From a virus, in the IMG/VR virus record IMGVR_UViG_3300030099_007188, positions 1-30,213 of that record: a stretch of 30,213 nt of DNA; one strand, written 5' to 3'. The notes beneath the pieces are model-generated. The model worked only from the letters and a program-made list of their open reading frames with translations. It had not been told where the DNA came from and made no database searches. A program made the translations under genes and the position numbers. Positions within the stretch are counted from its first letter, which is position 1, and the number at the start of each line of letters is the position of its first letter. Positions 3,872 through 12,467 of the stretch are shown here, piece by piece.

Positions 3872-4600
3872 TTATTTTTGTTGGTTATAAATATATATAA
3901 ATTCTTTCAAGTCAATAAGTTGTTTTTTTATAGGTAAGTAAGATTTTTCATTTTTTAAACACCTATTAAAACCTCTTTCTGACGTAGTATTTATAGTTAA
4001 ATTTAATTCAAATACATCAGCTATTATTTCAGCTAGTTCTGATTTTGTTATACAACTACTAGATATTACATTATCTATTTTGTAATTATTCCAATTAGAT
4101 ATCATTTCTAAACAATATTTAGCCCATGTTAAAGTAGTATTTCCATTCCACCTTGCATTTTCAGAAAATGAAGCTTCATTAGCTGTTTTTAAAAATTCAA
4201 ATAAATATGGTTTTGGTTTAATTTCAGGACCTATAATAGATGATCTTATTATTTTTGTATTTTTAGAATTATTATTTACCCAAATACTAGCATTTGTTTT
4301 AGATGCAGCATATAATCCCATTTCATTATCACTATCAGTACCTGGATATATTATTCTACATTTTGTTTTTTCTTCTAATAATTTAGGTAGTTCATAATTT
4401 ACTGCTATTCCTTTTCTGGTAGGATTAGTAATAGCTATACAATTAACTATATAGTCACCTTTAAATTCTTCAAGATATTTATCAAAATTTAAAGTAGGCC
4501 ATTTTAAATTAGTTGTTGTATAATCTACTTTCATATGCTTAAAATAAGCACAAACCATAGATCCTAACATTCCTTTATGTCCTAATATTAATACTTTCAT
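3872..4600 (-). CDS. RmlD-like NAD(P)-dependent sugar reductase
   Basis: This is a 242-residue short-chain dehydrogenase of the dTDP-4-dehydrorhamnose reductase type. It has the Rossmann glycine motif GHKGMLG (7-13), an active-site region with T88 in PGTDSDN, and the YxxxK pair Y97/K101 in YAASK. It is shorter than RmlD (about 290-300), and the C-terminal substrate region is reduced. The gene overlaps the dehydratase gene by ATGA and is the last in the glycan cassette. The pair is reminiscent of CapE/CapF, where a dehydratase-epimerase makes a 4-keto-6-deoxy sugar that an RmlD-like domain reduces, but the cupin epimerase domain of CapF is absent. The likely product is a 6-deoxyhexose nucleotide, with or without an N-acetyl group. 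The substrate cannot be read from the sequence. Confidence 0.8.
   Translation of the reverse strand: MKVLILGHKGMLGSMVCAYFKHMKVDYTTTNLKWPTLNFDKYLEEFKGDYIVNCIAITNPTRKGIAVNYELPKLLEEKTKCRIIYPGTDSDNEMGLYAASKTNASIWVNNNSKNTKIIRSSIIGPEIKPKPYLFEFLKTANEASFSENARWNGNTTLTWAKYCLEMISNWNNYKIDNVISSSCITKSELAEIIADVFELNLTINTTSERGFNRCLKNEKSYLPIKKQLIDLKEFIYIYNQQK
3885..3894 (-). promoter_or_regulatory. promoter-like motif ATATTTATAA before the coiled-coil gene
   Basis: The minus strand reads TATATATTTATAACC. It lies 14 bases before the ATG at 3870, within the last codons of the reductase gene, so it could restart transcription of the tail genes after the glycan cassette. Confidence 0.45.
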
Positions 4601-5526
4601 GGTCTAAAAAAATCGTAATGATTTAATATTTTAATTAATTCTGGGTGTGATACTGTAGTTTCATGACTACTAAATTCATCAGCTATACAGTCTCTAAATA
4701 CTTCTTTATAGTGCATATAATAAGTATCATCTGTTTCGTTATAAAATGTTCTAGGTGCCTCTTCTTTACTAACCATTATTTCATGTATTTTTTCTGATAC
4801 TCTAGGTACACCTATTTTGTATTTTAATCCAAATTTATCTTTATATATTTCAAATAAATCTTTAACTAAAAACGATCTTAAATTAGGGACAACATTATAA
4901 CCACTTACCTTTAATCCTTTTTCAATTAAGTTCATAGCATCTTCTATATCAATCATAAATCTAGTCATTTCTTCAGAGTATAAAGTAAGAGTATATCCTT
5001 TATTAATAGAATCCCAAATTAAAGGAATAATACTACCAGTTGAATTTAAAACATTACCATAAATAGCAGAAGATAATCTTACCTTAGATTTTTCTGCATT
5101 TACTATGAAGGATTCTCCAGCTATAAACTTCATTGAACCATATAATGTAGTAGCTGCTCTTGATTTATCTGATGATATAAAACAAGCTGATTTAAATTTA
5201 TTTTCTTCTGCTGCTCTTCTAGAATTAATAGCTCCATCTATTAGTACTCTTACCCCTTCTTCTACGTTTTGATCTACAGCTTCTATTTGTTTTAATGAGG
5301 CAGCAAAAATACCAATAGTATGTCCTTTAGATGCTCGTTTTAATAAATCAAAATTACGAACATCACCTATAACACAATTAATGTTTGGAAATTGTTTTTT
5401 TAAGTAATAATGTTTAGCTTCATCTCTAGAATAAACTGTAATTTCATTATCATTATAATAACGTCTTACTAAATTAGATCCTAAAAAGCCGGCACCACCA
5501 GTTATAAATATTTTTTCGTTTTTCAT
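4597..5526 (-). CDS. nucleotide-sugar 4,6-dehydratase, PseB/CapE/FlaA1 type
   Basis: This 309-residue extended short-chain dehydrogenase has TGGAGFLGS at 9-17 for NAD(P) binding, then YSRDEAKHYYLKKQFP and GDVRNFDLLKRA (54-65). These are hallmarks of the PseB/FlaA1/CapE/WbjB branch that acts on UDP-GlcNAc. In the active site, SSDKS (118-122) replaces the usual STDKA, and Y129/K133 form the YxxxK pair. A further family signature, SEKIHEIMVSKEEAPR, lies near the C-terminus. The HAAALKQ segment is altered to FAASLKQ. It would make a UDP-4-keto-6-deoxy-HexNAc, with or without C5 inversion. The gene overlaps the methyltransferase and reductase genes by four bases each, which points to translational coupling. 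The family is well supported; stereochemistry is not predictable. Confidence 0.85.
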   Translation of the reverse strand: MKNEKIFITGGAGFLGSNLVRRYYNDNEITVYSRDEAKHYYLKKQFPNINCVIGDVRNFDLLKRASKGHTIGIFAASLKQIEAVDQNVEEGVRVLIDGAINSRRAAEENKFKSACFISSDKSRAATTLYGSMKFIAGESFIVNAEKSKVRLSSAIYGNVLNSTGSIIPLIWDSINKGYTLTLYSEEMTRFMIDIEDAMNLIEKGLKVSGYNVVPNLRSFLVKDLFEIYKDKFGLKYKIGVPRVSEKIHEIMVSKEEAPRTFYNETDDTYYMHYKEVFRDCIADEFSSHETTVSHPELIKILNHYDFFRP

Positions 5527-11700: not shown

Positions 11701-12467
11701 GGATCATCTAAGCCATACTTTTTTAATCTTGATTCTGTGTCTTTTAACCCATCTTTAGCATAAAAGTTATCTATAGATAGTATTAAATCAACTTCTTCTT
11801 CGGGACTGAATTCGTCTAGGAATGCCTCTACTAGTTCTTTAGTTGATTTTCTATAATCCCATCTTCCAAAATGCATAAATTTAAATCTTCCATCATCAAA
11901 ATCAGGTAATTTTACTTTTGGATCAGGTTTAAATAAATTTCCATCTACAGCTTCAGGCACTACCTTAACTTTATTGGGATCAGCTCCTTGTTCTATTGCA
12001 CATTCTCTTTGCCATTTAGATGCTACCCATAGTTGATCAAATGTATTCCATAATTTAAAAAAGTTTTCATCCATTCTAGTAGATTCCCAAACTAGATAAC
12101 CAATTTTAGGACCATCATAAAGACTATGATAAAAATGATGATTACATTCGTTTAATATAATATTAATGTTATGCTTAAATTCATTAGGATATTTAGTATA
12201 CATGGGGTGGTCTACTAATTTTTTATTAGGTCCATCTCCATTCCATAATGCTTGATTTATTAGTAATTTTTTATCTACATCAGTTAAATATGTTTCACCA
12301 TTATGGGGTTCATCATTCATTCCCTTCCATGTTTTTGGTGATATAGAAAAATTTCTAACTTTTAGAGGAGCTAGTTTTTGAAGTTCGTGTATTAAATTTT
12401 GGGCATGATTGTTATAACCACCATTTCCTATATAACTAGTATGAAAGTAAATTTTGGGTTTTGGCAT
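8742..12467 (-). CDS. 1241-residue four-domain glycan enzyme: GT4, TibC-like heptosyltransferase, GT-A, LmbE deacetylase
   Basis: Four enzyme domains can be read in order. (1) Residues 1-400 form a GT-B GT4 transferase with YIGNGGYNNHAQ near the start, FMHFGRWDYRKS (197-208) and the EX7E motif E286/E294 in SEGWNLPLIEAMACGTP. (2) About 405-765 resemble the TibC/Aah protein O-heptosyltransferases: FNLGPKVEV, SIGDTLSWMP, STSGLKEWP, FIGLGSGLSWANWAL (670-684) and an iron-finger set C714, C717, C733, C745. (3) About 768-1035 form a GT-A-like domain with WLDGDAF (863-869) as DxD. (4) 1053-1200 form a PIG-L/LmbE deacetylase with AHPDDE (1060-1065) and a second metal histidine motif, HNPIGEYGHPMH (1141-1152). 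No frameshift is seen. It is the first gene of the cassette. The joint task is presumably to build and trim a protein-linked glycan. Confidence 0.88.
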   Translation of the reverse strand: MPKPKIYFHTSYIGNGGYNNHAQNLIHELQKLAPLKVRNFSISPKTWKGMNDEPHNGETYLTDVDKKLLINQALWNGDGPNKKLVDHPMYTKYPNEFKHNINIILNECNHHFYHSLYDGPKIGYLVWESTRMDENFFKLWNTFDQLWVASKWQRECAIEQGADPNKVKVVPEAVDGNLFKPDPKVKLPDFDDGRFKFMHFGRWDYRKSTKELVEAFLDEFSPEEEVDLILSIDNFYAKDGLKDTESRLKKYGLDDPRLKILHFPSREDYVKYLQSGDVFLSCARSEGWNLPLIEAMACGTPSIYSNCSGQLEFAEGLGLPVKISHMEPAQRGEYSSFHRHLIRGEFYEPDFKDLRKVMRDAYENYDKHKKRALKESEIIRTKFTWENAAKIAYDTTNEFLKNIPDNKIEISFNLGPKVEVKGHNDRSYKVEFINADTNQIIHSSVIKNNMWTKCSKAFYIPWIIKINDEVVHTFNLKDKVVKVTFDSKSIGDTLSWMPQVVEFKNKYKCKVVVSTFHNEWFEGLEPYKNIKFIKPDILHNSYAEYKLGWFKTDGEWDNGFKNKVQPNTVPLIQCATDILGLPYKEINHGVNFKPKKRPIKEKYICIGPRSTSGLKEWPYENWKKLATKLSKKGYKIVNLSYEGFNGPNIINKEKLDWQNTWNYMYHAELFIGLGSGLSWANWALNKHTLMINNFIPFGYEFANNVTKVENKSVCHDCWVKPEYVFDAGNWDWCPEHEGTALQHICMKSLTVNEVYNRALDIIEPKEKNFVWITGGDKGYLSMIEVLAKSLLKYSKYKLIVYGFNCDSEINLPNVINKRVDFPLKPTFNPQREPDLYDKDYSLYFAKYLASIDSLTEEYENYAWLDGDAFVTENIDKSLKHINDGIDYPLFMTYYHGDINQWRLINNIKLTGKYGGELAAIKGINRNPHNTIIATGFYFYNKKCKNFFKNCLKWNEELNKQNIKIWVDDNSFSEERVANNLMWGSNQKEVMPVTWNNYYSSKEERMVDDYYLNQGFDVMYDKITREPYFIHGPDPSVKPKDNNVLNTAYNDYKCTKLMVVAHPDDELIFGGGELIKYGSDYKVVCISTPENKDRIKEFEVVMQKLNVGAYEILNYKDVLDPTEEYNIKNIISQKKWKKIVTHNPIGEYGHPMHKKVFDTIKSLTNNFYVFGKSLKKLDKEILTIKKELLSLYKSEQPIISQLLNKNGDWFKSNSNTNYIEYESIEKYKKSKDKTKYIACYEK

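Follow-up and report, generated by a model that had tools for sequence, protein, structure and literature searches.

A T4-like virus of aquatic bacteria carries a glycan gene cassette that suggests fibres decorated with a sugar coat swappable between strains

Enzymes of the TibC/Aah family (BAHT; NCBIfam TIGR04414, Aah/TibC autotransporter heptosyltransferase; PDB 4RAP and 4RB4) are ring-shaped dodecamers that act in the hyperglycosylation of bacterial adhesins. In TibC, Asp110 is the catalytic base, Thr226, Lys230, Arg286 and Trp305 contact the sugar donor and Cys339, Cys342, Cys358 and Cys370 form an iron finger; alanine at Asp110, Lys230, Arg286 or Trp305 abolished or largely diminished activity, iron-finger cysteine mutants failed, and a short peptide from TibA that contains Ser-Ser-Gly-Gly-Ser served as substrate in assays of TibC and AAH, heptosylated products being marked in the figure legend (available parts of PMC4358343). 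The accessible parts of the reviews nearest to the subject place BAHT in bacteria only (PMC7142665, PMC8498110), and full-text literature searches, in a collection without most subscription papers, listed no phage-encoded enzyme of the BAHT or TibC type. Here we describe such a domain, predicted from sequence, in a six-gene glycan cassette (positions 3872–12467, minus strand) of IMG/VR virus record IMGVR_UViG_3300030099_007188, a genome fragment of 30,213 bases that we call the window, and argue that the cassette probably acts late in infection to O-glycosylate one of the phage's virion proteins. The most likely acceptor is a Ser/Thr-Gly fibre, and the glycan would be strain-specific; the analysis suggests that this virus of aquatic bacteria coats its own fibres in sugars that can be swapped between strains.

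Glycans on collagen-like repeats are familiar from Bacillus BclA, which carries O-glycans on Thr of its Gly-X-Y repeats, although BclA is a spore coat protein and its sugars and enzymes are different. O-antigen conversion by gtrA/gtrB/gtr genes employs a membrane flippase and a lipid-linked transferase with membrane helices, whereas no membrane segment is predicted in any of the six cassette proteins (maximum 19-residue hydropathy 1.10). Virion glycosylation as such is already known, and Freeman et al. are said to have described it for mycobacteriophages in 2023. The sugars there are on the phage's own capsid and tail-tube proteins (as cited in the available part of PMC12619734), acceptors that differ from the one proposed for the window. 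The cassette also resembles the host recognition cluster of pelagimyophages and cyanomyophages. That cluster is likewise a variable island among T4-like structural genes, where glycosyltransferases occur together with tail fibres and collagen repeats, and rfaE is noted among its lipopolysaccharide (LPS) genes; it lies, however, between VrlC and gp14 and is read as host O-chain modification, and BAHT goes unmentioned in the accessible parts of its description (PMC7029224).

The window's BAHT domain belongs to a 1241-amino-acid protein (8742–12467, minus strand) that the first-pass annotation had called a transferase. This description holds (Pfam Glycos_transf_1, 7e-12) but is incomplete, since family and structure matches divide the protein into four parts: a GT4-type glycosyltransferase (residues ~1–395), a BAHT/TibC-like domain that had not been named (~403–765), a GT-A domain (~771–1045) and a PIG-L deacetylase (~1050–1241; Pfam PIG-L, 4.3e-8). 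The BAHT domain (10173–11261, minus strand) matches TIGR04414 with 190.6 bits (3.9e-56), just under the curated cut-off of 200, and two relatives score 188.2 (L053) and 187.1 bits (L054). Its alignments with TibC (PDB 4rap, 7e-30; 4rb4, 3.4e-30) cover TibC residues 27–379, a stretch that takes in the catalytic domain, the iron finger and the greater part of the N-terminal barrel. Asp492, Thr611, Lys615 and Trp679 of the window protein correspond to the catalytic and donor residues Asp110, Thr226, Lys230 and Trp305 of TibC, and Cys714, Cys717, Cys733 and Cys745 to its four iron-finger cysteines. In an alignment of 66 BAHT rows, near-copies included, position 110 is D in 63 rows (3 gaps), 226 is T in 62 and S in 3 (1 gap), 230 is K in 65 (1 gap) and 305 is W in 65 (1 gap), while each iron-finger cysteine is kept in 63–64 rows. 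TibC Pro300, which sets the stereoselectivity of that enzyme, is Gly674 in the window and Gly in 64 of the 66 rows. We assign residues 403–765, from these matches, as a TibC/Aah-type BAHT domain from a protein-glycosylating family. It differs from TibC and Aah in being encoded by a phage and in sharing one polypeptide with GT4, GT-A and PIG-L domains. Among the ten window proteins scanned no autotransporter partner was recognised, in a genome fragment and with the strand-loop-strand repeat model not searched; Gly-Ser/Thr repeat fibres are seen in relatives instead.

Relatives were collected in three scans of viral contigs, with the gp15-position protein encoded upstream of the cassette, the 1241-amino-acid protein and the tail sheath protein as queries; the gp15-position and sheath scans each comprise the best 80 of a larger number of matches. 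Among 47 distinct contigs that span the whole junction (two duplicates removed; the window and the isolates Microcystis phage Mel-JY01 and Flavobacterium phage immuto not counted), the stretch between the gp15-position and sheath genes is empty in 18, where only an 83-amino-acid gene lies between the two, holds BAHT in 16 and holds other cargo in 13. This junction is a variable hotspot in this phage group, and the first-pass view of it as an exceptional place for such genes finds no support; as to whether gp15 directly precedes the sheath region elsewhere, 18 relatives lack cargo, with the 83-amino-acid gene still separating the two genes.

The window's gene order recurs in L122, L125 and L085, and in L084 as far as its contig extends; L124 shares it too, though its first gene is split and of another kind (L084, L122, L124 and L125 are mutually close relatives, L085 a more distant one), and since the same genes stand in the same order in other contigs, the arrangement is not due to chance. 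A two-gene form, with the GT4-type transferase and BAHT encoded separately, is present in L053–L055 (the Pfam match is for L054) and, judged by gene layout, in L109, L112, L113 and L192–L194. As read from these gene contents, the GT4-type transferase and BAHT are the recurrent core and the other enzymes are swappable. The ratio of nonsynonymous to synonymous divergence (dN/dS) is 0.17–0.33 for all six genes against L125 and reaches 0.8 (in GT313, below) when the more distant L124 is taken for comparison. In the comparison with L085, dN is ~0.035 for the methyltransferase and dehydratase and 0.10–0.48 for the other genes compared, and this low value is a sign of gene exchange. In most T4-like loci that have BAHT, it lies in the gene group directly upstream of the 83-amino-acid gene and sheath, the exceptions being L116–L119, in which it is near the terminase gene. 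Sheath length was considered as a marker of BAHT presence, and no pattern was seen by eye.

Giant fibre open reading frames (ORFs) rich in Gly-Ser-Ser or Gly-Thr-Ser triplets lie upstream of many BAHT loci. A single degenerate pattern of five Gly-Ser/Thr-Ser/Thr triplets was applied to all records of a hand-picked set, mostly longer than 10 kb and with shorter contigs and near-copies omitted, that consisted of the window, 36 of the 65 BAHT loci and 31 records without BAHT. The pattern is present in 16 of 37 BAHT-positive records and in none of the 31 BAHT-negative ones, four of which exceed 100 kb (L074, L141, L172 and immuto); BAHT was absent from all 31 in whole-record searches with a query that matched 7 of 28 further records. 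Those 28, all but two of which came from the gp15 scan, served as a reverse test for BAHT, sheath and repeats. Six are T4-like records that reach the sheath gene: five (L006, L007, L019, L021 and L023) carry the repeats as well as BAHT, and L013, with Thr-Gln-rich collagen-like repeats, has neither the pattern nor BAHT. The jumbo record LR756501 has BAHT and abundant repeats. When the two sets are pooled, repeats occur in 22 of 44 BAHT-positive and 0 of 32 BAHT-negative records (Fisher, 3.2e-7). In its own right we record that LR756501.1 (735 kb, the record of L195) contains 1278 matches to the pattern, far more than any other record searched.

Grouping at ≥90% nucleotide identity over 1 kb, with the jumbo records left outside, gives 50 clusters, of which 12 have BAHT and repeats, 15 BAHT and no repeats, 21 no BAHT, and 2 are mixed. 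One of the mixed clusters contains L015–L017, which lack BAHT, together with L023 and L107, which carry BAHT and repeats; the two traits thus vary in step among relatives. In a tree built from sheath sequences (66 rows from 74 records, after rows lacking sheath sequence were dropped) BAHT requires 9 changes on the best tree, 5 of them forced by starred branches, and in pairs that differ in repeats BAHT either goes the same way or does not differ, and never goes the opposite way. The cases most telling for the link are those in which the fibre is away from the junction. The junction of Mel-JY01 lacks BAHT, and a GT4-BAHT gene of this isolate begins ~1.7 kb after the repeat fibre frame; L003, a 119-kb record whose junction is like that of the window minus the methyltransferase, has its sole repeat ORF in the fibre module at 117–119 kb. 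If the window is like these two, its fibre would be encoded beyond the stretch analysed here. The Mel-JY01 frame (PP395634.1, locus L083, positions 1–3052) encodes ~1,000 amino acids of Gly-Ser/Thr-repeat fibre and is open at the record start; the deposited annotation places minus-strand ORFs over it and has only its C-terminal part (2519–3052) as a gene.

Under the reading that we favour, the cassette would be transcribed along with the neck and tail genes, and the BAHT domain would add the first sugar to Ser/Thr residues in one of the phage's structural proteins, most likely a Gly-Ser/Thr-Ser/Thr repeat fibre encoded elsewhere in the genome. The GT4, GT-A, GT313 and GT367 enzymes would extend the glycan and the PIG-L domain would remove an N-acetyl group; the distinctive unit of the glycan, a branched 6-deoxy sugar, would come from the dehydratase, C-methyltransferase and reductase. 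Since phages exchange the add-on genes while the core stays constant, the particle glycan would differ between strains, and it may protect the fibre or change its recognition. We propose more tentatively, at a little under an even chance, that phages co-opted BAHT, a bacterial adhesin-hyperglycosylation enzyme, for their own collagen-like fibres, with the GT4 and BAHT core starting the chains and the swappable junction genes setting exchangeable glycotypes. Sugar-gene clusters of marine and freshwater myophages are often read as host LPS or capsule genes; if fibre glycosylation is correct, some of them decorate the virion and affect fibre stability, adsorption and protection, and the reading can be tested on a single enzyme, a single peptide motif and a single isolate.

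Several observations weigh against this reading. At the enzyme level, besides the score below the TIGR04414 cut-off, the adenine-contacting Arg286 of TibC is Thr660 in the window (T in 36, L in 17, V in 8, R in 4 and I in 1 of the 66 rows), and since Arg286Ala abolished or largely diminished TibC activity, this Thr is evidence against a donor site like that of TibC. In favour of the reading, BAHT is followed by HldE-like kinase and adenylyltransferase genes in L111, L117 and L118, and by the adenylyltransferase alone in L116 (their best curated models are the two HldE domains, below cut-off), but the window has no HldE-like gene, and an HldE kinase exceeds the cut-off in only 1 of 149 Flavobacterium-family genomes, in a search that also found it in only 2 of 14 controls; the donor may for these reasons not be ADP-heptose. 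At the fibre level, the window itself, a genome fragment, holds no Gly-Ser/Thr repeat fibre, and neither do half of the BAHT-positive records (22 of 44, many being fragments). L055 (51.5 kb, BAHT-positive) has a partial fibre region whose repeats are of other types, Gly-Ser-Ser runs being absent, and LR756504 (636 kb) has BAHT and no repeat. Eight records (L005, L012, L059, L060, L064, L066, L068 and L076) have repeats without BAHT; all end before the sheath gene and were set aside, as were twelve others with neither feature, and if all twenty are counted as BAHT-negative the comparison becomes 22 of 44 against 8 of 52 (p 0.0004). The records are not independent, and only 4–5 independent pairs stand on well-supported branches (p 0.125).

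Related searches concerned the donor and the host. TIGR02199 exceeded its cut-off in 0 of ten Bacteroidota genomes, 5 of which gave weak matches. A host BAHT as the source was rejected, with 0 of the 149 Flavobacterium-family genomes over the cut-off and 11 weak matches to the GT9-like part (the control search gave a match in 1 of 14 genomes and 0 over the cut-off). A kinase and nicotinamide mononucleotide (NMN)-adenylyltransferase-like pair near cassettes (19 and 21 loci) was rejected as a part of the donor pathway, being present with and without BAHT. This recurrent APS-kinase-like and NMN-adenylyltransferase-like pair is seen at the junctions of L131, L135, L141, L166, L003, L015, L023 and L107, often beside a small hydrophobic protein of 68–72 amino acids, in loci of both kinds.

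The cassette could instead remodel host LPS or capsule during infection, and so bar other phages or spare released particles loss on debris. Glycosyltransferase clusters have been read in this way in pelagimyophages (PMC7029224) and in jumbo phages and cyanophages (PMC7824862), in the parts of those papers available, and relatives of the dehydratase (≤69% identity) lie on Flavobacterium, Polaribacter and Terrimonas chromosomes, in Terrimonas in a three-gene row. We nevertheless regard this explanation as unlikely. The recurrent core is a protein-glycosyltransferase domain rather than a lipid-linked initiating transferase, and the six proteins lack membrane segments. The 53 BAHT-positive loci that include a sheath gene contain 181 distinct ORFs, of which 13 exceed a lax hydrophobicity threshold; inspected by eye, the 13 comprise long fibre frames, frames that look soluble and the small 68–72-amino-acid protein, with no flippases or polymerases among them. 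Nor would host-surface remodelling predict the co-occurrence of BAHT with fibre repeats. The first-pass annotation had left the choice between virion glycosylation and an altered host surface; virion glycosylation is the likelier of the two, given the family of BAHT, the link to Ser/Thr-Gly fibres and the lack of any flippase- or polymerase-like protein noticed.

Its suggestion that the neighbouring tail or head proteins receive the sugar fares less well. Protein glycosylation with a neighbour (sheath, tube or capsid) as acceptor would suit the position of BAHT upstream of the 83-amino-acid gene and sheath in most T4-like loci that have it, and the known mycobacteriophage capsid and tail-tube glycosylation, but the same sheath and tube block stands beside an empty junction in 18 of the 47 relatives, and in Mel-JY01 BAHT is distant from the sheath gene and near the repeat fibre. 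We consider a neighbouring acceptor quite unlikely and a separate fibre the likelier target. The genes could also be mere passengers at a site of frequent insertion, with no special use in the virion; this would agree with the varied cargo and the exchanged parts seen against L085, but is very improbable in view of the dN/dS values against L125 (those against L124 being higher), the recurrent ordered architecture and the non-random partnership with the repeat fibre.

All six cassette ORFs are intact, and their coordinates confirm the place, minus strand and overlaps of 4–14 bases given in the first-pass annotation, as well as its picture of coupled sugar genes within the tail block. The five overlaps are 11 bases for the 1241-amino-acid gene and GT313, 11 for GT313 and GT367, 14 for GT367 and the C-methyltransferase, and 4 each for C-methyltransferase and dehydratase and for dehydratase and reductase. 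The cassette starts 53 bases past the gp15-position gene (12521–13453, minus strand), whose product has relatives in immuto and Mel-JY01; "gp15-like" is a name from synteny only, and a 13-row profile search found no solved (PDB) relative of the family. At its other end the cassette stops 1 base short of the gene for the 83-amino-acid protein (3619–3870, minus strand), which is coiled-coil-like by eye, precedes the sheath gene in most relatives and is not a cassette member; the sheath gene (1773–3560, minus strand; PHROG tail sheath, 1.2e-69) comes next. The cassette is thus placed between the gp15-like and sheath genes as had been claimed, but with a gene intervening before the sheath.

The G+C content of the cassette is 22–29%, compared with 28–37% for the structural genes on both flanks. 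The TATAAATA motif is not enriched in the window (20 found, against 15.4 ± 3.7 in shuffles), sigma-70-like sites are no commoner than expected by chance (97 against 108.9), and no conclusion was drawn from these transcription signals. In a pattern scan, the two strongest terminator-like stems on the minus strand follow the tube gene (1183–1202), possibly the end of the cassette's transcription unit, and the major capsid gene (15626–15651), possibly its upstream boundary, and only three weaker stems lie between them; this pattern fits transcription of the cassette together with virion genes, as far as predicted stems can indicate. The virus has the traits of a T4-like myovirus, with its sheath match and with relatives in immuto for the capsid, neck, sheath, tube and baseplate; Gp20, Gp23 and terminase are annotated in the immuto record. 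The presumed host group, the Flavobacterium family, is taken only from this nearest isolate and from the relatives of the dehydratase.

The remaining cassette enzymes are as follows. GT313 (7811–8752, minus strand; 313 amino acids) and GT367 (6718–7821, minus strand; 367 amino acids) are predicted GT-A-like glycosyltransferases and paralogues of one another, with 27% identity and, in a 23-row alignment, common invariant residues that include Asn-Tyr-Asp. GT313 has no Pfam match; its AlphaFold model (predicted local distance difference test, pLDDT, 90.5) gives Foldseek probability 1.00 to GT-A enzymes, with query TM-scores of 0.31–0.42 among 50 matches listed. The third domain of the 1241-amino-acid protein (pLDDT 80.1; Foldseek probability likewise 1.00) is modelled with a GT-A-like fold, and the query TM-scores for it and GT313 together are modest (0.31–0.55 among the matches listed). 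PDB profile searches with the third-domain family and the GT313/GT367 family gave no usable match. The other three enzymes had been named as such from the start, and Pfam agrees: a nucleotide-sugar C-methyltransferase (5523–6731, minus strand; Methyltransf_14, 9e-27, and also Methyltransf_13 and _23), an NDP-sugar 4,6-dehydratase-like short-chain dehydrogenase/reductase (SDR; 4597–5526, minus strand; Polysacc_synt_2, 1.6e-40; best NCBIfam match PseB, below cut-off) and an RmlD-like SDR reductase (3872–4600, minus strand; a weak 2.7e-6). The bacterial chromosomal relatives of the dehydratase include Terrimonas, Flavobacteriaceae (Flavobacterium, Polaribacter) and Patescibacteria; it is followed by a relative of the reductase in 9 of 23 bacterial loci, and in Terrimonas relatives of the dehydratase, C-methyltransferase and reductase are consecutive, so such a sugar probably exists in bacteria. 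General family scans, which were not aimed at T4-type DNA glucosylation, found no enzyme of that kind among the cassette proteins.

Some minor observations concern other genes. Dioxygenase-like genes (by eye) lie beside fibre genes at 4296–7420 of L239 (the L055 record) and 7397–8116 of L087, and fibre hydroxylation is possible there. In L015–L017 (for example L016, 15845–19997) tandem sheath-like genes (787 and 570 amino acids) directly follow the 83-amino-acid-type gene. In the window, positions 29053–29616 encode a short glycosyltransferase-like protein with 26–27% identical relatives in the junction cassettes of L131, L135, L138 and L141, and positions 29909–30121, at the window edge, encode the end of an oxidoreductase-like protein (by eye). 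A second glycosyltransferase- and sugar-nucleotide-like cluster (by eye) is located far from the tail block in the L003 record (L199, 64727–73790 in contig coordinates).

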